Source: Syntrophaceae bacterium
GTDB taxonomy: Bacteria; Desulfobacterota; Syntrophia; Syntrophales; PHBD01
DNA length: 64,000 nt
Assembly (NCBI GenBank): GCA_013177825.1
Contig: JABLXX010000001.1
Span: 62,001 to 126,000, forward strand
Direction: 5' to 3'
Shown: positions 15,521 to 50,693 of the stretch, piece by piece
Numbering within the stretch: the stretch's first letter is position 1
Layout of the letters: the number at the start of each line of letters is the position of its first letter
Made by a program: the position numbers and the translations under genes
Notes under the pieces: generated by a model
Told to the model about the DNA's origin: nothing
Database searches by the model: none
What the model saw: the letters and a program-made list of their open reading frames with translations, nothing else

Positions 15521-16324
15521 TTACAGCCAGCGTTTCCGCCGCCTGTAGGATTTCACGTCCCGATAGGAGCGCACCATCCCCTCGGCCCCCATGCCCAGGT
15601 AGAATTCCTTCACGTCCGGATTCTCCACCAGTTCTCCCGCCGGACCCTCCATGACGATCTTTCCGTTTTCCATGACGTAGCCGTAATGGGCGATGGACAG
15701 GGCCATCCGGGCGTTCTGCTCCACCAGCAGGATCGTGGTGCCCTGCTCCTCATTGATGCGGCGGATGATGGTGAAAATCTCCTTTACGACCAGGGGGGCG
15801 AGGCCCAGAGAGGGCTCGTCCAGGAGGAGTAGCGACGGGTGGGCCATCAGGGCCCGGCCGATGACGATCATCTGCAGCTCACCGCCGCTGCAGTAGCCGG
15901 CCAGGTTCTTCCGCCGCTTCAGCAGGGCCGGGAAGTAGGCGTAGACCATGTCCAGGTCCTTCCTGTACGGACCGGGCGGCCGGGTGGCCGTACCCACCCG
16001 GAGGTTCTCTTCCACCGTCAGATACTTGAACGGTTGCCGTCCCTCCAGGACCTGGATGATTCCCTTGCGAGTGATTGTCTCCGGCGATTCGTTCTGGACG
16101 GGTTGTCCGCCGTAGAGAATCGTACCATCGGTGACCCTGCCGTTTTCCGGCTTGAGGAGGCCCGAGACGGCCTTGAGGGTGGAGGTCTTGCCGGCCCCGT
16201 TGCTTCCCAGGAGGGAGACGATCCGCCCCTTCTCCACCGCCAGGGAGACACCCTTGAGGACCTGGATCACGTCCGAATAGACCACCGAGATATTGTTGAG
16301 TTGCAGAAGAACCTCATTGTCCAT
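15521..16324 (-). CDS. livF: LIV-type ABC transporter ATP-binding protein LivF
   Basis: A 267-residue ATPase of the LivF family. It has LLQLNNISVVYSDVIQVLKGVSL at the start, Walker A GSNGAGKTS, the LivF-type signature YCSGGELQMIVIGRAL, Walker B LLLLDEPSLGLAP and the switch LLVEQN. The C-terminal tail ending in YRRRKRWL is typical of this group. It is the last gene of the livK-G-ligase-H-M-F operon, 12 bases after livM, and pairs with LivG to drive import. Confidence 0.94.
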   Translation of the reverse strand: MDNEVLLQLNNISVVYSDVIQVLKGVSLAVEKGRIVSLLGSNGAGKTSTLKAVSGLLKPENGRVTDGTILYGGQPVQNESPETITRKGIIQVLEGRQPFKYLTVEENLRVGTATRPPGPYRKDLDMVYAYFPALLKRRKNLAGYCSGGELQMIVIGRALMAHPSLLLLDEPSLGLAPLVVKEIFTIIRRINEEQGTTILLVEQNARMALSIAHYGYVMENGKIVMEGPAGELVENPDVKEFYLGMGAEGMVRSYRDVKSYRRRKRWL

Positions 16325-16336
16325 GGTCTTTACTCC

Positions 16337-17413
16337 TCAGTACGAGAACGGCCAGAGACGGAAGCTCGACCGGACGATCCTCCAGACCTCCGCCAGTCCC
16401 CGGGGCTCCAGGAGGATGAAGAGGACGATAGCCAGGCCGAAGGTGAACTCCCGCAGGGGGGCGATGTTCAGGCCGTATTCCGACAGGAGGCCCATGTTCA
16501 TGACCACCTCCGTGACGAACCGGAGGATCTCGTTCAATCCCGTGATGAAGACCGCCCCGAAGACGGCACCGGCCATGTTGCCCATACCGCCGATGATCAC
16601 CATGGCGATGTATTCCACCGAGAGACCCATGTTGAAGGGTTCCGCCGTGATGCTGACCAGGTAGTAGGCCCACAGGGCCCCGGCCACGCCTGCGTAGAAG
16701 GAACTGATCCCGAAGGCCAGGAGCTTGTAGGGGAACACGGGGATGCCCATCCCTTCGGCGGCCCGGTCATTGTCGCGGATCGCCACGAGCGCCCGGCCGT
16801 AACGGGTCCGCATCAGGTTCACGGCCATCCAGATCATCCCGGCCAGGACCAGGTAGATGGCGTAGAAGAACGACCGGTCACTGCCGATGGACCATCCCAG
16901 GATCTCCGCCCGGGGGACGGTGATGCCCATGGTTCCCTGGGTGACGGATTCCCAGTGGACGAGGACGTATTCGATGATGAACTGGCCCGCCAGCGTGGCG
17001 ATGGTCAGGTACAGACCCTTCAACCGTCCCGAGGGGATCCCGAAGACCATGCCGACCGCCGCCGCGACCAGGCCCGCCGCCGGGACCGCCGCCAGGAAGG
17101 GGACGTTCCACCGCGTGGCGAGGACGGCCGCCGCGTAGGCTCCTACGCCGACAAAGGCTCCGTGTCCCAGGGAGATCTGTCCCGTGTAGCCGACGAGAAT
17201 ATTCAGGCCCACGGCCGCGACGGCGGCGATGCCCGTCATGTTGAGAATGTGGATGAAGTAGGGCGAGGACGCGAAAGGGACGGCCCCGAAGAGCAGAACC
17301 AGCCCGAGAACGGCCCAGAGGCGACCGAAGTCGGTCTCGAACACCGTCAGTTCCTGGTCGTACCGTTCCCGGTAGTTCCCGCAGGGATGGAAGGTCCATT
17401 TTCTCGTTTCCAT
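16337..17413 (-). CDS. livM: LIV-type ABC transporter permease LivM
   Basis: A 358-residue inner-membrane permease with about nine to ten hydrophobic segments. The LivM hallmarks are GLNILVGYTGQISLGHGAFVGVGAYAAA, then RYGRALVAIRDNDRAAEGMGI and IIGGMGNMAGAVFGAV. It forms the channel with LivH. The ATG at 17413 lies 1 base after the livH stop, so translation is coupled. Confidence 0.94.
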   Translation of the reverse strand: METRKWTFHPCGNYRERYDQELTVFETDFGRLWAVLGLVLLFGAVPFASSPYFIHILNMTGIAAVAAVGLNILVGYTGQISLGHGAFVGVGAYAAAVLATRWNVPFLAAVPAAGLVAAAVGMVFGIPSGRLKGLYLTIATLAGQFIIEYVLVHWESVTQGTMGITVPRAEILGWSIGSDRSFFYAIYLVLAGMIWMAVNLMRTRYGRALVAIRDNDRAAEGMGIPVFPYKLLAFGISSFYAGVAGALWAYYLVSITAEPFNMGLSVEYIAMVIIGGMGNMAGAVFGAVFITGLNEILRFVTEVVMNMGLLSEYGLNIAPLREFTFGLAIVLFILLEPRGLAEVWRIVRSSFRLWPFSY

Positions 17414-17414
17414 G

Positions 17415-18293
17415 TCAGACCCTCTCGATTTCTTTCAGCCCGAAGAGCCCGTAGGGCTTCACCATCAGGATGACCACCAGGGCGATGTAGGGCACCACGT
17501 CCTTGAGGGAAGGGGAGAGGTAGCCCCCGGTGAAGGTCTCCAGGAGGCCGATGATGATGCCCCCCAGGATGGCCCCGCCGATGGAGTCCAGCCCGCCCAG
17601 GATGACCACCGGGAAGACCTTGAGTCCGATGGCCGACAGGTCGTGGACGTTGATGCCGTTGATCACGCCCAGGACGATGCCGCTCATTCCCGCCACCAGC
17701 GCGGCGATGGCCCAGGAGAGGGCGAAGACCCGCTTCACGTGGACGCCCAGGGAGAGGGCCGCCCGCTGGTTGTCCGCCACGGACCGCATGTAGATTCCCT
17801 GGGAGGAGAACTTGAAGAAGAGACCGAAGAGGATCAGGAAGACCGTTCCCACGGCCAGCACGGCCGTGTACACCGGCGGCACCGAGATGTTGCCCAGGGT
17901 GATCCCTATCCACTCGGGGAGAAAGTCGGGATAGGTGTGCAGGTTCCCGCCCCAGATGAACAGCAGCAGCCCCTTGAACATGGAGGCCAGCCCCACCGTG
18001 AGCATGATGACGAAGATGAGCGGCTCCCCGATGAGGGGCCGCAGGAACAGCCGCTCGATGACGAAGCCGAGGAAAAAACAGCCTGCGAGCGTCAGCAGGA
18101 AGGCCAGGGCAATGGGAAGCTCGGCCCATGTCACCAGGGCCAGGAACAGAAACGCCCCCATGGCCAGGAGTTCCCCGTGAGCGAAGTTGAGCACGCTCGA
18201 GGACTTGAAGATCATGACGAAGCCCAGGGCCGACAGGCCGTAGAGAAAGCCGATGCTCAGGCCGCTGACGAGAAGATGAAGGAAGAAATCCAT
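17415..18293 (-). CDS. livH: LIV-type ABC transporter permease LivH
   Basis: A 292-residue permease from the ATG at 18293 (MDFFLHLLVSGLSIGFLYGL), preceded by AGGGTG. An upstream in-frame start lies inside the ligase gene and is rejected. Family segments include LNFAHGELLAMGAF, IERLFLRPL, GINVHDLSAIGLKVFPVVILGG and GGAILGGIIIGLLE. It follows the acyl-CoA ligase by 17 bases. Confidence 0.94.
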   Translation of the reverse strand: MDFFLHLLVSGLSIGFLYGLSALGFVMIFKSSSVLNFAHGELLAMGAFLFLALVTWAELPIALAFLLTLAGCFFLGFVIERLFLRPLIGEPLIFVIMLTVGLASMFKGLLLFIWGGNLHTYPDFLPEWIGITLGNISVPPVYTAVLAVGTVFLILFGLFFKFSSQGIYMRSVADNQRAALSLGVHVKRVFALSWAIAALVAGMSGIVLGVINGINVHDLSAIGLKVFPVVILGGLDSIGGAILGGIIIGLLETFTGGYLSPSLKDVVPYIALVVILMVKPYGLFGLKEIERV

Positions 18294-18310
18294 GACACAC
18301 CCTTTCTGGT

Positions 18311-20215
18311 TCAATCCACCGGGATGACCCGGACCCGCGTCTCGATCCATCCTTCCCGGCCGTCGCGATAGCGGACGGGGGTCTTCACGTCCACTTCCTG
18401 CTCGTTCCGGTACATGGCCTCGATGAGGCGGAGATACAGTCCGTAGACGAAGCGGCGCCGCACCTTGCCCGTGCGCGTCAGCTCGTCGTCGTCGGCGTCG
18501 AGAAGCTTGTAGAGGAGGATGAACTTGCGGATCCGCATGAACGCCGGCAGCCGCTCGTTGACCTCCTTCAACTCGGAAAGGATCAGCCCTTCCACTTCCG
18601 GCCGCTGGGAGAGGTCGAGGTAGGTCGTGTAGGGTATCATCCGCTCTTCCGCCCAGTTGCCCACATTGCCGAAGTCGATGTTGACGAAGGCCGTGAGGAA
18701 GGGCCTGCCCTCGCCGAAGATCACCGCCTCCTTGATGTAGGGACTGAATTTCAGGCGGGTTTCAATGAAGTCGGGGGAGAAGGCCTCGCCGGTCTTGTTG
18801 CGGATGATCTCCTCCTTGCGGCCGATGATGACCAAGTGCCCGTCCTCGTCCAGGTAGCCCGCGTCGCCCGTCTTGAGCCAGCCGTCCTGGAAGGCCCCTT
18901 CCGTAGCGGCGAAGTCGTTGTAATAACCGGCGAAGTTGGCGTCAGCCCGGACCAGGACCTCCGAGTCCTCGGCGATTTTTACGTCCGTCCCCGGCAGGGG
19001 CCGGCCCACGGTCTCGGGCTTCACCTCGTCGTCCGGCTGGACCTGGAAGATCCCGCCCGACTCGGTCAGGCCGTAGCACTGCTTCAGGTTCAGTCCGACG
19101 GCGCGGAAGAAGCGGATCACGTCGGGGCTGATGGGATGCCCCCCCGTGAGGACGCACCGGAAACCGGAGCAGCCGATGCGATCCAGGAGCGGATCATAAA
19201 CGATCCGCTTCGCCAGGCTCTGCACCAGCCGGTCGGACCAGGGGCGGGAGCCGTTGCCCGGGCCCCGCTCGGCGGACCGGCGGCCCGCCGCCTCGGCCCA
19301 CCGGAAAAGAAGACGGTTGATCCAGCCGGCATCGGACATGCGGACCCGGATCCGGGAGGCGAGATCCTCCCAGAAGCGGGACGAGGTGATCAGGACGGAG
19401 GGGCCGATCTCCCGGAAGTCTTCCGTCACCGTCTCCGGGGTCTCCGGAAAGTTCATCGTCATTCCGCTCACCAGGGCCACGCCGACGCCCCACATCTGGT
19501 CGACGATCCAGGCCGGGGGAGAGATGGAGATCCAGTTTTCCCCGGGCCGGAGCGAGAGATGGTCCGTCCAGCTCCGTCCCATGGCGGTGAGGCCCCGGTG
19601 GCTCAGCATGGCCAGCTTGGAGACTCCCGTGGTTCCCGAGGTCTGGATCATGAGGGCCGTGTCCCGGGGATTCCCCCGGGCGATCTCCCGGCCGAAGCGC
19701 TCCGGGTCGCTCCGGTCCGCTTCTTCGCCCAGGTCAAGGAGCTCCCGGTAGCTCATCAGCCAGGGATCCTCCCGATAGAACCGCATCCCCGTGGGATCGA
19801 CATAAATAACCTTCCGGATATGGGAGAGATCGTCGCGGTGCTCCAGCAGTTTGTCCGCCTGCTCCTGGTCCTGGACGATGACGTAGGCGGCACCGATCCG
19901 GTTCAGGGAAAACAGGAGTTCGCCGGCGACGGAGGAGGTGAAGAGGTTCAGGGTGACGGCCCCCAGGGCCTGGGATCCCAGCTCTCCGAAGAGCCATTCG
20001 GGACAGTTGTTGACGATGAGGGCGACCGGCTCGCCGCGCCGGAGCCCCAGGGATTGCAGGCCCAGGGCCGTCTTCCGGACACACGACAGGTAGTCGTTCC
20101 AGGAGTGGGTCTGCCAGATGCCGTAGGCCTTCTCACGGATGGCCGTCCGGCCGCCCAGCAGGGCCGACTGTCGCGCCAGCACCTGCGGGAGGGTCAGGCG
20201 CGAAATGTCTTTCAT
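18311..20215 (-). CDS. AMP-forming acyl-CoA ligase inside the liv operon
   Basis: A 634-residue adenylate-forming enzyme that activates a carboxylic acid with ATP and CoA. Landmarks are MIQTSGTTGVSKLAMLSH (ATP loop), QCYGLTESGG, WLKTGDAGYLDEDGHLVIIGRKEE (hinge) and the lysine-bearing ELTRTGKVRRRFV. The start is ambiguous. ATG 20215 begins with family-like sequence; an ATG at 20356 overlaps the livG stop, has GGGGGA upstream, and would add 47 Gly/Pro/Ser-rich residues. The AMP-ligase placed between livG and livH suggests that the transported molecule is a carboxylate trapped as a CoA thioester. An aryl or branched acid is a reasonable guess given the Phe-rich leader; sequence alone does not fix it. 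Confidence 0.9.
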   Translation of the reverse strand: MKDISRLTLPQVLARQSALLGGRTAIREKAYGIWQTHSWNDYLSCVRKTALGLQSLGLRRGEPVALIVNNCPEWLFGELGSQALGAVTLNLFTSSVAGELLFSLNRIGAAYVIVQDQEQADKLLEHRDDLSHIRKVIYVDPTGMRFYREDPWLMSYRELLDLGEEADRSDPERFGREIARGNPRDTALMIQTSGTTGVSKLAMLSHRGLTAMGRSWTDHLSLRPGENWISISPPAWIVDQMWGVGVALVSGMTMNFPETPETVTEDFREIGPSVLITSSRFWEDLASRIRVRMSDAGWINRLLFRWAEAAGRRSAERGPGNGSRPWSDRLVQSLAKRIVYDPLLDRIGCSGFRCVLTGGHPISPDVIRFFRAVGLNLKQCYGLTESGGIFQVQPDDEVKPETVGRPLPGTDVKIAEDSEVLVRADANFAGYYNDFAATEGAFQDGWLKTGDAGYLDEDGHLVIIGRKEEIIRNKTGEAFSPDFIETRLKFSPYIKEAVIFGEGRPFLTAFVNIDFGNVGNWAEERMIPYTTYLDLSQRPEVEGLILSELKEVNERLPAFMRIRKFILLYKLLDADDDELTRTGKVRRRFVYGLYLRLIEAMYRNEQEVDVKTPVRYRDGREGWIETRVRVIPVD

Positions 20216-20345
20216 CCTGTCCCCCGGGGCGGATCCCGGGGAAGCCCCCACCGCGGATAACGGTGGAGATACCGGCGTTTCGGGACGCGCCCCGGAGAGC
20301 AGCCGGCTGAACCAGCGTCCGGAGGCGCGGGCCAGTAAAGCGGAG

Positions 20346-21173
20346 TCAGCCGCCATGTTCGTCCCCCAGGTAGGCCCGGATCACCTCCGGGTGGTTCCGG
20401 ATCTCCTCCGGCGTGCCCTCGGCGAGTTGCTCGCCGAAATTGAGAACCACAACGCGATCCGAGATGCTCATCACAATGGACATGTCGTGTTCCACGAGGA
20501 TCATGGTCTGACCCCACCCTTTGTTCAGTTCCAGGAGGAAGCGAACCATGTCTTCCTTCTCCTCCAGATTCATCCCGGCGAAGGGCTCGTCCAGAACGAG
20601 GAGCTTCGGTTCCAGGGCCAGCGCCCGTCCCAGCTCCACCCGCTTCATCAGGCCGTAGGGAAGGGACCCCACGGTCTTCTTGCGGATCGCCTGGATCTCG
20701 AGAAAATCGATCAGCTCCTCCAGGAGCCGGCGGTGGCGGATTTCCTCCCGGCGGACGGCGGGGCTGAAGAGGCAGGCGTCCGCCAGGCCGTACCCGCAGT
20801 GAATGTGCCGGGCCAGGAGCAGGTTCTGCAGCACCGTCATTCCCGGAAACAGCTCGATGTTCTGAAAGGTCCGGCCGATGCCGATCCGCACGAGGTGATG
20901 GGCGTGCATCCGCGTAATGTCCCGGCCGTTGAAGCGGATGCTCCCCTTCTGGGGCTGGTAAAACCCGGTGATGCAGTTCAGGAGGCTTGTCTTGCCCGCT
21001 CCGTTGGGGCCGATCACGGCCAGGAGTTCGCCCGTTCTGGTCGTGAGGCTCACGTCCTGCAGGGCCTGGACCCCTCCGAAGGCCAGCGACAGGCCTTCCA
21101 CGTCCAGGTCCGCCCGGCGGTCCGTCTCCGTGGTGGATTGGAAAAGGGCCGGCTCTCCCCGGAATGCCTTCAT
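20346..21173 (-). CDS. livG: LIV-type ABC transporter ATP-binding protein LivG
   Basis: A 275-residue ATPase from the ATG at 21173, preceded by AAGGAGC. It has LAFGGVQALQDVSL, Walker A GPNGAGKTS, the LivG insertion RTFQNIELFPGMTVLQNLLLARH, signature PYGLMKRVELGRAL, Walker B LLVLDEPFAGMN and switch LVEHDMS. The signature is LPYGL rather than LSGGQ, as is usual for LivG. It lies between livK and the ligase. Confidence 0.94.
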   Translation of the reverse strand: MKAFRGEPALFQSTTETDRRADLDVEGLSLAFGGVQALQDVSLTTRTGELLAVIGPNGAGKTSLLNCITGFYQPQKGSIRFNGRDITRMHAHHLVRIGIGRTFQNIELFPGMTVLQNLLLARHIHCGYGLADACLFSPAVRREEIRHRRLLEELIDFLEIQAIRKKTVGSLPYGLMKRVELGRALALEPKLLVLDEPFAGMNLEEKEDMVRFLLELNKGWGQTMILVEHDMSIVMSISDRVVVLNFGEQLAEGTPEEIRNHPEVIRAYLGDEHGG

Positions 21174-21237
21174 GGTTTTTGCTCCTTGTCTTTCCGGTGC
21201 CGCCGCGCGATAACCGGCAAGGCGGGACCCCGAGTGT

Positions 21238-21272
21238 CCGTGCCGGCACGGAATCATCCCGTGCCGGCACGG
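21238..21272 (-). promoter_or_regulatory. hairpin between livK and livG
   Basis: Two copies of CCGTGCCGGCACGG flank AATCATC. Each copy is self-complementary and together they can form a 14-bp stem 8 bases past the livK stop. There is no U-run. It probably protects the livK message, raising binding protein over the membrane parts. Confidence 0.6.
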
Positions 21273-21279
21273 CGGTCAT

Positions 21280-22479
21280 TTATTTCAGAAGCCGGATCTT
21301 TTCCTTCCCCGGCGTGTAGAAATTGGTCAGCGGAACGTAGGTGCCGTCTTCACGGACCTGGACAATGCGGGCCCGGAACGAGGCGCCGTGGTCCTTCTTC
21401 GTGTAGGTCACCGGCGGGAGCAGTCCCCCGAAGTCCTCGTTCTTGAAGGATTCCATGGCGCGATTGATTGTGTTGCGGTTGACCTGCTTGAACTTCTCCT
21501 GGGCGCGAACAAAGGCCCGCTCCATGATCATGCCGATGGCGACGCCTTCCCAGTAGGCCGCGTCGAAGCGATCGACGGTCCGATAGCGTTTCCAAAGTTC
21601 TTTCATGACGTTGATTCCCGGCGAGTTGTCGGACGGGAGCCCGCCCGGGAACTGCATGGCGAGGCGGTCCCTGATGAGGCCCTTGCTCTGCCGGAAGAAA
21701 TCGGGGTCCGTCGAGGTCCAGGTGCCGAAAAAGCGGGGGGAGTAGCGGAGCCGGTCGGCACTCCGGAGGGTCGTAATGATGGCCGAGGGCAGCATCTGCA
21801 TGAAGACGTATTGGGCGCCGCTCTTCTGGAGCCGGAGCAGCTCCGTGGTCAGGTCCACGGTCTTGGGCGGGAACTCTTCAATGGCGACGATCTTTACCCC
21901 CAGCCGGGCTGCGTATTCCCGTGTCGGCTGGTGGATGGAGCGGCCATAGGCGTTGTTGTAGGTCAGGAGCCCGACTTTCGGTGCGTCCTTTCCGGTGTGG
22001 ATTGCCTTGATGTACTCGAGGACGGCCTGGCAGTCCATGCGGTAGCTGCCGAAGGGGAGGTACATGTAGTCCACCGGCTTCTCCAGGATCTCCCAGCTGG
22101 TGGAAAAGTTGATGGTGGGTATCTTGTACTGCTGAACGATGGGTTTGGCCGCCAGCCCCTCACCGGCACCCCAGGTGGCGATCATGTCCACCTGGTCCTG
22201 AATGGCGAACTTCTTGACCGCCGCCACCGCCTCGGGAACCTTGTAAGCCGTGTCAGCCAGGAGGATCTCGATCCTGTTGCCGGCGACGCCTCCCTTGACG
22301 TCGTTGACGTAGGCCAGGTAGTCCTGCAGGCCCTTGGCGTGGAACTGGCCCCAGGTGGAGGCGGGCCCCGTCATGTTGATGGCGGCGCCGACCTTGATCG
22401 TCTTCGCCTCGACCGGGCCGGCGGCAAGAACCAGAACTGCCAGAACGGCCCACAGGGTGGAACAAAGCATCCGTCTCAT
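21280..22479 (-). CDS. livK: LIV-type ABC transporter substrate-binding protein
   Basis: A 399-residue periplasmic binding protein of the Leu/Ile/Val-binding (Peripla_BP_6) family. Residues 1-25 are a signal peptide cleaved after VEA. The mature part starts KTIKVGAAINMTGPASTWG and continues with GVAGNRIEILLADTAYKVPEAVAAVKKFA and VGLLTYNNAYGRS. GAAGGAGG precedes the ATG. First structural gene after the attenuator at 22495-22672, so its expression should follow phenylalanyl-tRNA charging. Ligand not determined; family members bind branched-chain and aromatic amino acids, and also aromatic or aliphatic carboxylates. Confidence 0.94.
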   Translation of the reverse strand: MRRMLCSTLWAVLAVLVLAAGPVEAKTIKVGAAINMTGPASTWGQFHAKGLQDYLAYVNDVKGGVAGNRIEILLADTAYKVPEAVAAVKKFAIQDQVDMIATWGAGEGLAAKPIVQQYKIPTINFSTSWEILEKPVDYMYLPFGSYRMDCQAVLEYIKAIHTGKDAPKVGLLTYNNAYGRSIHQPTREYAARLGVKIVAIEEFPPKTVDLTTELLRLQKSGAQYVFMQMLPSAIITTLRSADRLRYSPRFFGTWTSTDPDFFRQSKGLIRDRLAMQFPGGLPSDNSPGINVMKELWKRYRTVDRFDAAYWEGVAIGMIMERAFVRAQEKFKQVNRNTINRAMESFKNEDFGGLLPPVTYTKKDHGASFRARIVQVREDGTYVPLTNFYTPGKEKIRLLK

Positions 22480-22494
22480 GATTTCCTCCTTCGG

Positions 22495-22529
22495 AAAATA
22501 AAAAAGGCCGGGGATGATGTCCGCGGCCT
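22495..22529 (-). terminator. second leader terminator directly before livK
   Basis: On the minus strand AGGCCGCGG pairs with CCCCGGCCT (one mismatch), followed by TTTTTTATTTT. It ends 15 bases before the livK ATG and overlaps the space of the ribosome site. It may back up the first terminator or take part in alternative folding, because both share CCGCGG. Confidence 0.65.
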
Positions 22530-22533
22530 GGCC

Positions 22534-22574
22534 AAAAACAAAAAGCCGCGGGCGGTATGAGATCCGCCCGCGGC
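22534..22574 (-). terminator. attenuator terminator (3:4 hairpin) of the liv operon leader
   Basis: GCCGCGGGCGG and CCGCCCGCGGC form a perfect 11-bp stem with an 8-base loop, followed on the minus strand by TTTTTGTTTTT. It begins 27 bases after the leader-peptide stop codon. A competing 10-bp pairing is possible between leader bases 22606-22615 (GAGGUCUGCC) and 22559-22568 (GGCGGAUCUC), which would break the terminator stem. Confidence 0.85.
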
Positions 22575-22600
22575 CCTTTTATTTCATTCTGTGTCGGACC

Positions 22601-22672
22601 CTACAGGCAGACCTCCCGGGTAAAGCTAAAAAAGCCGAAAAAGAAAGTTGCCTGGATGGTTCCGGTGGACAT
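22601..22672 (-). CDS. phenylalanine-rich attenuator leader peptide
   Basis: A 23-codon open frame starting at the ATG at 22672, with GGGAGA 6 bases upstream. It reads MSTGTIQATFFFGFFSFTR and then EVCL, with six Phe among codons 10-17. This is the layout of the pheA and pheST leader peptides, which test Phe-tRNA charging: a ribosome stalled on the Phe codons changes downstream RNA folding. Here bases 22643-22652 (GGCAACUUUC) can pair imperfectly with 22606-22615 (1:2), the latter with 22559-22568 (2:3), and 22564-22574 forms the terminator (3:4). A longer open frame extending upstream has no start signal or known domain. Confidence 0.75.
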   Translation of the reverse strand: MSTGTIQATFFFGFFSFTREVCL

Positions 22673-22701
22673 TGATTTCTCCCGATGAAAAAAGTTGGGA
22701 A

Positions 22702-22731
22702 CTTTTACTTCGGAAGACCGGCGAATGTCAA
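22702..22731 (-). promoter_or_regulatory. promoter for the liv operon leader
   Basis: Minus-strand TTGACA (22726-22731) and TAAAAG (22702-22707) are separated by 18 bases. Transcription would start about 20-25 bases upstream of the leader-peptide ATG, as in known amino-acid attenuators. Confidence 0.6.
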
Positions 22732-22916
22732 GAGGAATTTGCCCTGGAATGATTTTCCCGTTTTTGTGACTCGTGCATTGCCTAAATAATATGGATCCGT
22801 TACCATGGAACCCGCCTGCGAAAGATCCGGCCGGCGGAGAACTCCGAATGCTTGCTGATTGCGGCAAGCGTACAGCCCGCCACATAAACGAAGACTCCAA
22901 GGGGAAGGTTGATGAA

Positions 22917-23696
22917 ATGAACGGAATCCTTTTCATGATCAACGGGATGTATGCCGGCCCCTGGATGTGGGAGAATTATAGGGGATGGTTCGAGGCCCGG
23001 GGCTGGCAATGTGTCACCCCCGTCCTGCGCCATCACGACACGCGGCCCGGCGATCCTCCGGACCCGCGGCTGGGGATGTTGAGCCTGCTTGATTTCGTGC
23101 AGGATCTGGAAGAGGAGATCCGTCGGCTGGACCGGAAGCCCGTCATCATGGGCCATTCCATGGGAGGCCTTCTCGCCCAGATCCTGGGAAGCCGCGGACT
23201 CGCCGCCGCGCTGGTCCTGGTTGCCCCCGCCGCTCCCGCGGGCATCCCGGTCACGAGCCCTTCCGTAACCAGAAGTTTCCTGGAGCAGTTCCTTCAGTGG
23301 GGATTCTGGCGAAAGCCGGTTCTGATGTCCTATGCGGATTCCCGGTACGGCGCCCTGAACCTGCTGCCGGAAGCGGAGGCGCGGCGCGTCTACGGCCGTT
23401 ACGTTCATGAATCTGGGCGGGCTCTCTTCGAGATGGGCCTATGGCCTCTCGACGGGAACCGGGCGTCCCGTGTCGATGCGGCGAGGATCGATGTCCCCGT
23501 GCTGGTCCTGGTCGGGGATCGGGACCGGATGACGCCACCGGCCGTGGCACGGAAGATCGCCGCGAAGTACCGCTCCGTCTCGATGCTGAAGGTGCTCCCG
23601 GGCCATGGTCACACGCTGCCGGCCGAACCGGGCTGGGAGGAGATCGCCGCCTTCATTCAGGATTGGCTGATGCAGGCCGTTCCGGGGCCGTTATGA
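22917..23696 (+). CDS. alpha/beta hydrolase
   Basis: A 259-residue alpha/beta-hydrolase-fold protein. The oxyanion segment is INGMYAGPWMWENY near the start, the nucleophile elbow is GHSMGG, the acid is in LVLVGDRDRMTPP and the catalytic histidine is in LPGHGH. The start at 22917 follows AAGGGGAAGG. It probably cleaves an ester, thioester or amide; no substrate clue. It is divergent from the liv leader and its last 6 bases overlap the end of the convergent ModF-like gene. Confidence 0.9.
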   Translation: MNGILFMINGMYAGPWMWENYRGWFEARGWQCVTPVLRHHDTRPGDPPDPRLGMLSLLDFVQDLEEEIRRLDRKPVIMGHSMGGLLAQILGSRGLAAALVLVAPAAPAGIPVTSPSVTRSFLEQFLQWGFWRKPVLMSYADSRYGALNLLPEAEARRVYGRYVHESGRALFEMGLWPLDGNRASRVDAARIDVPVLVLVGDRDRMTPPAVARKIAAKYRSVSMLKVLPGHGHTLPAEPGWEEIAAFIQDWLMQAVPGPL

Positions 23697-25160
23697 GGTC
23701 CGTTCCGCCGGCGCGGCCAGGGACAGCGTTTGGTCGATGCAGGCGGGCAGTTCGTCGGGGTGATGGGTTACGAACAGGATCGTGGTTTCCCCGGTCTCGG
23801 CGATCCGGTTCACCATCTCCAGGATCCGGCTCCGGTTTCCCGTGTCCAGGCCCTGGCATGGTTCGTCCAGGACCAGGAGTTCGGGAGATTTGACCATGGC
23901 CCGCGCCAGGAGTACCATGCGCCGCTCTCCGAAGGAGAGGGAATCGAAAGGCCGTCCGGCCAGCGCCGCGATGTCCAGGCGGGCCGCCCAATCGTCCGCC
24001 GCCCGGACCTGGCTCGCCGTCACATGGCGGTAAAGGCCTACGGAGTCGAAGAATCCCGAGAGGATGACGTCCCGGGCCGCCAGAGGCAGCCGATACCGGA
24101 TCTGGAACTCCGATGACACGAACCCGATGCGCGCCTTGATTTCCCAGATGCTTTCCCCCGATCCCCGGCGCCGGCCGAAGATCCGGATGTCATTGGAATA
24201 GGCCTGGGGATGGTCCGCCGTGATCAGGTTCAGAAGGGTGGTCTTTCCCGATCCGTTCGGTCCGACGATTGCCCAGCGCTCGCCTCGGCGGACGGTCCAG
24301 GAGAATCCGTCCAGGATCGTTGCATCGCCGTAACGGACGACGACGTCTCTCATGGCGATCAGAATGTCTCCACTTGCAGGGGTGGTCCTTTCGGCCTGCA
24401 AGGCTGACGGGCGATCCGCCACCGGCGGATCGAAGAGGACCCGGATTCGATCGGGAGTGAGCATCTCGTCCCGTGGACCCTGGAAAAGGACGCGCCCTTC
24501 CCGAACGCCCAGAACATGTGTGATCTCTGCGGGGATTTCATCCCTGCGGTGGGTTATGACGACGACTTGTGTGCCTGCGTTCATGACTGTGCGGACGATT
24601 TCCCGGAAGGCGCTACGCGAAGCCCTGTCCAGGCCGGCGAAAGGCTCGTCCAGGATAAGGATTTCCGGGTTCACAAGAAGGGCGCGGGCGATCAGGACTT
24701 TGCGGAATTCGCCCGTGGAAAGGAAACGGATCGGACGTTTCCCAAGGTCTGCAATGCCCAGGCGTCCGAGAAGACGGTCAACCTTCGCGGGGTCGTCCAT
24801 CCCGCCGCCCGCATTGCCGCCGACCGTATCCCGCACCCGTTCCAGGTCGTTCCACGAACCCGCGAAGGCACGAGCCGCATCCTTCGTTTCCTCCCGGGCC
24901 AGGATGCACTCCTGAAGCTCGAGGGAGACATGGCCGGGATGGCTGCCCCCCGAACGGTTTCCGTTGTGGATCACCCGTCCTCGGACATGGAGCTCCTCGC
25001 CGGCCAGGACCCGTGCCAGTGTGGATTTCCCCGCTCCGTTCGGGCCGAGGATAGCCCAGTGCTCGCCGCGGCGAATCTCCCAGGTTGTGTCGTGAAGGAG
25101 GAACGTTGTGCCGAGACGGACGGTGATGCCCTCCAGTTTCAGCAGGATGTTCGGATCCAT
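23691..25160 (-). CDS. double-domain ABC ATPase, ModF/PhrA-like
   Basis: A 489-residue protein with two complete ABC ATPase domains and no membrane segment. Domain 1 has GPNGAGKSTLARVLAGE and LLVNPEILILDEPFAGLD; domain 2 has GPNGSGKTTLLNLITADHPQAYSND and ELLVLDEPCQGLD. The AYSNDIRIFGRRRGSGESIWEIK segment is typical of ModF (once named PhrA), found near molybdate genes in some bacteria. Its role is not well established. The start at 25160 gives the usual ModF beginning; an upstream extension lacks similarity. Confidence 0.88.
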   Translation of the reverse strand: MDPNILLKLEGITVRLGTTFLLHDTTWEIRRGEHWAILGPNGAGKSTLARVLAGEELHVRGRVIHNGNRSGGSHPGHVSLELQECILAREETKDAARAFAGSWNDLERVRDTVGGNAGGGMDDPAKVDRLLGRLGIADLGKRPIRFLSTGEFRKVLIARALLVNPEILILDEPFAGLDRASRSAFREIVRTVMNAGTQVVVITHRRDEIPAEITHVLGVREGRVLFQGPRDEMLTPDRIRVLFDPPVADRPSALQAERTTPASGDILIAMRDVVVRYGDATILDGFSWTVRRGERWAIVGPNGSGKTTLLNLITADHPQAYSNDIRIFGRRRGSGESIWEIKARIGFVSSEFQIRYRLPLAARDVILSGFFDSVGLYRHVTASQVRAADDWAARLDIAALAGRPFDSLSFGERRMVLLARAMVKSPELLVLDEPCQGLDTGNRSRILEMVNRIAETGETTILFVTHHPDELPACIDQTLSLAAPAERTS

Positions 25161-25324
25161 TGTGATCTTGCCTTTGCCCGCCGCCGTTCCGGGAACGGAG
25201 CGGGTCCTGTCGCGAGTCTTTGTATTGACGCCGGCGCTGCACCGGTTTATCATGAGCGCACGGATGTCTCAAGACGGATGCATGGTGCATTCTTAAATCG
25301 CTGAGCAGAATTCAGGAGGCGGAA

Positions 25325-45759: not shown

Positions 45760-45814
45760 ATGCTTTGAAACCCGGTTGCTTTTTTCCGGAAAGGGGATTA
45801 GGATTTCGACTCGA

Positions 45815-45890
45815 CATACGGGGGTGCCGCAGAGGCTGAGAGAATACCCTTTGAACCTGACCTGGATCATGCCAGCGTAGGGAGCGGAGA
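45815..45890 (+). promoter_or_regulatory. TPP riboswitch (THI element)
   Basis: The conserved core is present: GGGGGTGCC, then GGCTGAGAGAATACCC, then TTTGAACCTGACCTGGATCATGCCAGCG and TAGGGAG. These are the pyrimidine- and pyrophosphate-binding arms of the thiamine pyrophosphate aptamer. It precedes thiN-thiD-thiC and is followed by a terminator, so TPP should switch the operon off by early termination. Confidence 0.97.
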
Positions 45891-45904
45891 TAGGACGAAC
45901 GGAA

Positions 45905-50534: not shown

Positions 50535-50609
50535 GCGGGCGTAACTCAGTGGTAGAGTGCTACCTTGCCAAGGTAGACGTCGACGGTTCAAATCCGTTCG
50601 CCCGCTCCA
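50535..50609 (+). tRNA. tRNA-Gly (anticodon GCC)
   Basis: Acceptor GCGGGCG pairs with CGCCCGC. The anticodon arm is TACCTTGCCAAGGTA (GCC), the T arm contains GGTTCAAATCC, and the discriminator T is followed by encoded CCA. Confidence 0.97.
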
Positions 50610-50618
50610 GTCATTTCC

Positions 50619-50693
50619 GGCGGCATAGCCAAGTGGCAAGGCAGCGGTCTGCAAAACCGTTATTCACCGGTTCGAATCCGGTTGCCGCCTCCA
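50619..50693 (+). tRNA. tRNA-Cys (anticodon GCA)
   Basis: Acceptor GGCGGCA pairs with TGCCGCC. The anticodon arm has CGGTCTGCAAAACCG (GCA), the T arm CGGTTCGAATCCG, and CCA is encoded. It is the last core gene before the IS remnants and low-GC island, so it may have been the target of an older insertion. Confidence 0.96.

Follow-up and report, generated by a model that had tools for sequence, protein, structure and literature searches.

The leaders of pheA (pheL) and pheST (pheM) combine phenylalanine codons with terminator/antiterminator logic. The same combination is found in a leader that lies within a 64,000-nucleotide stretch of the genome of a Syntrophaceae bacterium (hereafter the window), but there it stands in different bacteria, before different genes and with a tandem terminator. 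In the his leader, stem-loops AB, CD and EF alternate with BC and DE (PMC10989985). The window leader resembles the his operon leader of E. coli and Salmonella in its alternating chain of pairings, 1:2, 3:4 and 5:6 against 2:3 and 4:5, among which a ribosome on the cognate codons decides in his and would decide here. It differs in that the EF stem is the attenuator in his, whereas the window leader has U-runs after both 3:4 (C:D) and 5:6 (E:F), and in that it carries phenylalanine codons and precedes a transporter/ligase operon. No Rfam family matched the leader region at its gathering threshold; the best match was His_leader (RF00514; 29.6 bits, E 0.0049, gathering threshold 49), and Phe_leader (RF01859) scored 15.2 bits (gathering threshold 55). 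The operon behind the leader is similar to the E. coli LIV-I/LS operons in its LIV-type permeases, ATPases and binding protein, but it also contains an acyl-CoA ligase, and its best LivG, LivH, LivM and LivF scores were all below the NCBIfam cut-offs.

The kind of attenuator is already known; among the matches listed in a search of the open literature, which covered titles and abstract openings, we found no report of this target operon, of the regulon or of the tandem-terminator layout. Judged from the sequence, the window leader is probably (with a probability of about 0.85) a ribosome-mediated attenuator responding to charged tRNA-Phe, which governs the genes SBP-livG-ligase-livH-livM-livF for phenylalanine supply.

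The leader in the window

All elements of the leader are on the minus strand. The promoter-like TTGACA and TAAAAG (22731–22726 and 22707–22702, with an 18-nt spacer), which the first-pass annotation had read from the sequence, are present to the base, though a strict sigma-70 promoter rule gave no match at this position. A TTGAC followed by A, T or C was present 60–160 nt 5′ of strand 2 in 52/52 leaders of the family, with about five expected by shuffling. Downstream, a ribosome-binding site GGGAG, read from the sequence (22683–22679), precedes an ORF (22672–22601) for the 23-codon leader peptide MSTGTIQATFFFGFFSFTREVCL, in which six phenylalanine residues occupy codons 10–17 (within 22645–22622), in agreement with the earlier description.

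The leader RNA contains six strands that can pair in alternative ways. Strand 1 (22654–22643, read from the sequence) is the protector and partner of strand 2, which is GAGGUCUGCCUG (22615–22604) with the core GGUCUGCC. Strand 3 (22574–22559) is common to the antiterminator 2:3 and to terminator 1 (3:4), and strand 4 is located at 22555–22545. Hand checks on the sequence reproduced the competing pairings that had been claimed, namely 1:2 between 22652–22643 and 22615–22606 (8/10 paired), 2:3 between 22615–22606 and 22568–22559 (ten pairs including two G-U, which extend to 12 pairs) and the rival 3:4. Terminator 1 (22574–22540), detected by both a terminator scan and folding, has a stem of 11 perfect pairs (22574–22564 with 22555–22545) followed by a U-run past the leader stop, also as claimed. 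Behind it in tandem is a second terminator (22529–22500), which lies inside the region that the first-pass annotation covered and was not described there; it consists of a hairpin in which strands 5 and 6 pair except at one mismatch (22529–22505) and a U-run (22505–22500), and ends 20 nt before the start codon of the binding protein. This second terminator was missed by a stricter terminator scan that caught the first. Part of strand 4 (22551–22545) is also a perfect complement of strand 5 at 22527–22521. The leader RNA as a whole had a minimum free energy z-score of −4.56, with 0/200 shuffles equally stable, and the 1:2 pairing alone was within chance (45/200 shuffles equally stable).

The neighbour 5′ of the leader is a gene for an alpha/beta hydrolase on the plus strand (22773–23696, start codon not settled), followed by a minus-strand gene for a ModF-like twin ABC ATPase (23691–25253; 448 bits, just under the NCBIfam cut-off of 459). 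Elsewhere in the window are a TPP riboswitch at 45810–45900 (Rfam RF00059, 62.4 bits) and two tandem tRNA genes at 50535–50690 (Rfam tRNA).

Leaders in relatives and at other operons

The element was found in 52 of 80 fetched relatives, counted after the removal of four spurious pattern matches (L051, L077, L081 and L082), and the alignment analysed below (A2) comprises 52 of 53 leaders, with L027, which is cut upstream, omitted. The leader of a same-genus ortholog differs in 3 of 23 residues, keeps all six phenylalanines and has an identical terminator-1 stem. Conservation of the phenylalanine codons and of the alternative stems had been set beforehand as the test of the attenuator, and it held across the 52 aligned leaders. 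In frame 0, at least three phenylalanine codons were present in 52/52 rows, with a mean of 5.4 of 15 codons, compared with means of 2.5 and 2.7 in the other frames, of which frame +2 has stops in 48/52; the third base was T 235 times and C 45 times. Tyrosine occurs in some of the leaders of the transporter operon, and tryptophan is absent save in one over-extended start (L036). A leader ORF was detected in 51/52, and its ribosome site scored at least 4 of 6 in 40 of these 51, the window among them, so that the leader ORF, ribosome site and run of cognate codons of a ribosome-mediated attenuator are all present. The exception, L020, lies 5′ of the binding protein with its strands conserved and its reading frame broken.

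The strand-2 core is almost invariant in A2, and pairing was found in 97.4% of cells for 2:3 (at most 47% when slid) and in 95.6% for 3:4. Covariation in the two stems, which the first-pass annotation had named as a check, was found in part. For 3:4, both sides were changed in 32 cells compared with 10.6 in shuffles, but the number of pairs with such double changes was not beyond chance (5 compared with 3.6 in shuffles; 95/500); for 2:3, covariation was one-sided except in one cell, because strand 2 hardly varies. Both stems are thus conserved as pairings, and the antiterminator 2:3, mutually exclusive with the terminator as in a ribosome-mediated attenuator, is a conserved feature. Terminator 1 was called by rule in 52 of 53 leaders of this operon (the call in L038 is the wrong hairpin), where an intrinsic terminator separates the leader ORF from the first gene. 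In most leaders the distance from the start of the strand-2 core to the stop codon is 10 or 19 nt, and a complement for strand 1 is located near −42 or −48 of strand 2. Row by row, the 1:2 pairing was weak against shuffles and reached 0.05 or better in 15/52. It was absent in five leaders of an FFFF type, in which the stop is 2 nt before the strand-2 core start and a recognisable ribosome site is lacking. These five (L049, L052, L055, L056 and L057) have a second design ending in ...FFFF(D/G), in which the stop falls where strand 2 begins, and are perhaps translated leaderless.

An ortholog of the binding protein was detected in 118 of 155 genomes of the order (119 rows, E 1e-90 or better), the order being Syntrophales as judged by the names of relatives. 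In at least 108 of these 118, counting the strongest model rows listed (at least 53.8 bits), the leader model matched on the same strand no more than 400 nt upstream of the ortholog, and several of the ten genomes without one have a partial protein or a contig end. In a tree of 81 binding proteins, with a midpoint root for drawing only, all 53 leader-bearing rows fell on one side of a branch with 100/100 support, together with the leaderless L051 and with L013, which has no upstream DNA. A palindrome, TGAATGA-N4-TCATTCA, was found upstream in 16 of 25 leaderless orthologs (weak in L077) and at 0/52 leader loci; it has the form of the Bacillus FadR consensus and is a putative operator of the FadR type. 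Between the leaderless loci (L058–L083) and the leader loci, the regulator would have changed on orthologous operons.

We examined 38 further matches of a covariance model (R1) that had been built solely from the leaders of the LIV-type operon and that matched in 140 of the 155 genomes. Twenty of them precede aroF, with phenylalanine and tyrosine in 20/20 and tryptophan in 18/20; both of the aroF products scanned (L125 and L163) were DAHP synthases over cut-off. The aroF leader of the own genome (G000:C11:19533-19682), a weak match (E 1.8e-4), reads ...TYWFGFYYF... and heads a cluster with aroB, pheA and aroDE-like genes; no leader was seen directly before pheA, the leader of this cluster being placed before aroF. 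Three matches precede trpE (L172, L174 and L176, all over cut-off) and have three or four consecutive tryptophans, and six precede ilvB (L167, L168, L171, L173, L175 and L177; both of two scanned over cut-off), with valine/leucine runs in 6/6. The attenuators of trpE and ilvB often carry tandem terminators. The codon content follows the pathway downstream in the aroF, trpE and ilvB leaders, and since codons match pathways there, the LIV/ligase operon looks to be part of a phenylalanine regulon; the presence of one attenuator family before all of these genes thus supports the earlier proposal that the operon is a phenylalanine-supply system.

Leaders with phenylalanine codons were found at further sites. 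Four genomes have one before a stand-alone acyl-CoA ligase (L131, L133 and L135 with a clean ORF, L134 without), one has it before a sodium:solute symporter plus ligase (L137, in a genome with no detected ortholog of the binding protein), and two precede ADP-forming acyl-CoA synthetases (L164 and L169). Two others precede a thiolase (L166 in G075 and L170 in G074), and neither genome is among the 118 with an ortholog. The thiolase of L170 is accompanied by a BbsA-like zinc-ribbon protein.

These results bear on whether the leader is an attenuator at all. A U-rich tract yields some phenylalanine in any frame, and a chance ORF over such a tract, beside the terminator of the upstream gene, could have the look of a leader peptide. 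This explanation, to which we give almost no weight, was rejected because the upstream gene is divergent, so that the leader terminators do not end another minus-strand unit, and because frame, stop and pairings are conserved; leaders of the family at further amino-acid operons, which carry different codons, speak against it as well.

The proposed switch

With enough charged tRNA-Phe, the ribosome would reach the leader stop against strand 2 and cover that strand, so that 3:4 would form as terminator 1, and terminator 2 (5:6) would catch the read-through past it. When charged tRNA-Phe is short, the ribosome would stall on the phenylalanine codons over strand 1, and strand 2 would capture strand 3 ahead of the synthesis of strand 4. 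The latter, left free, may then pair with strand 5 and disarm terminator 2 also, and the operon would be transcribed. We infer from the sequence the role of the ribosome, the opening by phenylalanine shortage and the 4:5 step.

Folding with constrained alternatives, the check that had been asked for, showed that either 2:3 or 3:4 forms depending on the strand that is covered. With strand 1 covered and the RNA extended to 22559, short of strand 4, 2:3 formed (−28.4 kcal/mol); covering strand 2 instead gave 3:4 (−30 to −34 kcal/mol). Once strand 4 is made, the fold with 3:4 (−58.6 kcal/mol) beats 2:3 with 4:5 (−50.9 kcal/mol) and 2:3 with 5:6 (−51.7 kcal/mol), and so the switch must be kinetic and timing decides, as it does in classical attenuation.

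By rule, terminator 2 was present in 29/53 leaders of the LIV-type operon, 15/20 of aroF, 3/3 of trpE, 4/6 of ilvB and 4/4 of the ligase leaders. Among the LIV calls, L021 and L049 look spurious and L010, L015, L026 and L048 were missed but are visible by eye; the single calls at the symporter and thiolase leaders also look spurious. Terminator 2 is thus absent from about half of the LIV leaders. In the window, 4:5 and 5:6 are nearly isoenergetic. When matched 4:5 pairing was compared with permuted partners, 0/2000 permutations were as good over all 57 rows, but the pairing was not clearly beyond permutation within the LIV leaders (121/2000) or within the aroF leaders (409/2000). The main argument for the 4:5 step is that a terminator just before the ribosome site would need an antidote if the operon is to be expressed. 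Taken together, conservation, reading frame, pairings, nascent folding, distribution and the related leaders support the first proposal that phenylalanine codons control a transporter and ligase operon by attenuation.

The operon and its candidate substrate

The leader is followed, on the minus strand, by genes for a LIV-type substrate-binding protein (SBP, 21280–22479; Peripla_BP_6 by Pfam/NCBIfam and by predicted fold), a LivG-type ATPase (20346–21257), an AMP-forming acyl-CoA ligase (18311–20356; best NCBIfam model FadD11, 259 bits against a cut-off of 950), a LivH-type permease (17415–18350), a LivM-type permease (16337–17413) and a LivF-type ATPase (15521–16324), the last being the final operon gene recognised in the window; the four Liv-type assignments are also from Pfam/NCBIfam. 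The Peripla_BP_6 protein, two BPD_transp_2 permeases and two ABC ATPases make up a LIV-type (HAAT) ABC transporter. The order SBP-livG-ligase-livH-livM-livF is kept in the fetched relatives over whatever part of it their DNA covers. In the own genome this binding protein is represented by a single ortholog, alongside seven distant LIV paralogs, and the leader model gave no match in the fetched loci of these seven.

A gene for a PaaK-family ligase is present 3′ of livF on the same strand in 22/30 leader loci compared with 0/16 leaderless loci, sometimes only beyond a gap of up to ~1.5 kb; these counts are from 47 loci with at least 7.6 kb past the SBP start, among which near relatives are not independent, and L013, which lies in the leader clade and has such a gene, was placed in neither group. 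Six PaaK-family genes that were scanned gave 172–238 bits with phenylacetate-CoA ligase models as the nearest, cut-offs of 646 and 700 not being reached. No PaaK-family gene was found in the window.

One account of the substrate accepts the attenuator and takes the operon for a plain importer of phenylalanine (aromatic amino acid), its ligase being a passenger from an older role. LIV-type systems carry amino acids, the solved structure closest to the predicted fold of the binding protein is valine-bound (3lkb), and the leaders hold phenylalanine and some tyrosine, with tryptophan confined to the over-extended start. Yet the ligase is inside the operon wherever the locus DNA reaches that far, the PaaK-family ligase is added in most of the leader loci, and elsewhere phenylalanine leaders precede CoA ligases without an amino-acid transporter. 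We regard plain import as a real contender, although with the odds somewhat against it.

In anaerobes, incorporation of aryl acids, for example of phenylacetate into phenylalanine, would depend on uptake together with a CoA ligase and a ferredoxin oxidoreductase. The route is known from other organisms, and the window operon is a candidate for its uptake and ligase steps. Our results suggest that the cells scavenge an ingredient of phenylalanine when they are short of phenylalanine; perhaps an aryl acid of the phenylacetate type would be taken up and CoA-activated as the precursor. A ferredoxin-dependent arylpyruvate oxidoreductase could then carboxylate the activated acid to phenylpyruvate, a step that we put forward tentatively, at a little less than even odds. 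The own genome has a prephenate dehydratase, and the cell should therefore make phenylalanine itself, which counts against the supply reading. It also has an IorA over cut-off, 133 kb from the operon and adjoined by a gene that reads as iorB-like; IorA was over cut-off in 108 of the 155 genomes and absent at E 1e-150 in 16, some of which have the operon, a distribution that is compatible with incorporation of an aryl acid and not specific to it. In 27 of 34 same-contig pairs picked among the matches listed (L182–L186 among the loci), iorA shares the strand of the operon and lies 15–35 kb downstream of it. Judged by their translations, the intervening genes are probably recJ, purN, purM and those for homoserine dehydrogenase and phosphoglycerate mutase; since these are housekeeping-like, we took the nearness as ordinary synteny and dropped it as a functional link. 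Synthesis of phenylalanine from phenylacetate is cited for rumen cultures in a published account (PMC7356843).

Evidence from fatty-acid systems points in another direction, in which phenylalanine shortage would be no more than a proxy for scarce nutrients, and the cargo of the operon would be fatty acids or other acids that are not aromatic. The operon ligase is FadD-like, the other closest solved structure of the binding protein (4n03) has a bound fatty acid, with aryl-acid binders ranking below both 3lkb and 4n03, the presumed FadR-like palindrome is shared by most leaderless orthologs and by none of the leader loci, and a thiolase follows a phenylalanine leader in two genomes. These thiolase-linked leaders are not explained by uptake and activation of an aryl acid in its simple form. 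Against such a proxy, the codons are specific (phenylalanine here, tryptophan at trpE, valine/leucine at ilvB and mixed aromatic at aroF), and a signal of general starvation would require no such match; we consider this proxy unlikely. The ligase in the operon, the PaaK-family gene, IorA and the rumen report together favour import and activation of a phenylalanine precursor, which would explain more than plain import of phenylalanine, although the predicted fold of the binding protein stands nearest to valine and fatty-acid binders, and a sequence comparison of its pocket with amino-acid binders did not decide between ligands.

In its fullest form, which we offer as speculation more apt to fail in some part than to hold as a whole, Syntrophales would have a phenylalanine regulon governed by an attenuator of six strands, built like that of his. 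One stalled ribosome would disarm both of its tandem terminators and so turn on the uptake of aryl acids and their activation with CoA. The cells would obtain phenylalanine from phenylacetyl-CoA through reductive carboxylation as well as by the shikimate route, and the operon, formerly one for fatty acids, would have been captured when the attenuator replaced a FadR-like operator.

The leader codons name phenylalanine, and so give a testable function to an operon that would at best be named for branched-chain amino acid transport and a fatty-acid ligase. One attenuator family stands before aro, trp, ilv, transport and ligase genes in a little-studied anaerobic order, a group of mostly uncultured bacteria, and with a change of codons the amino acid that is sensed would change. 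In the tandem-terminator layout, a single stall could release both locks. If the operon does take up and activate an aryl acid, syntrophs that feed on aromatic-rich waste would turn phenylacetate back into protein.
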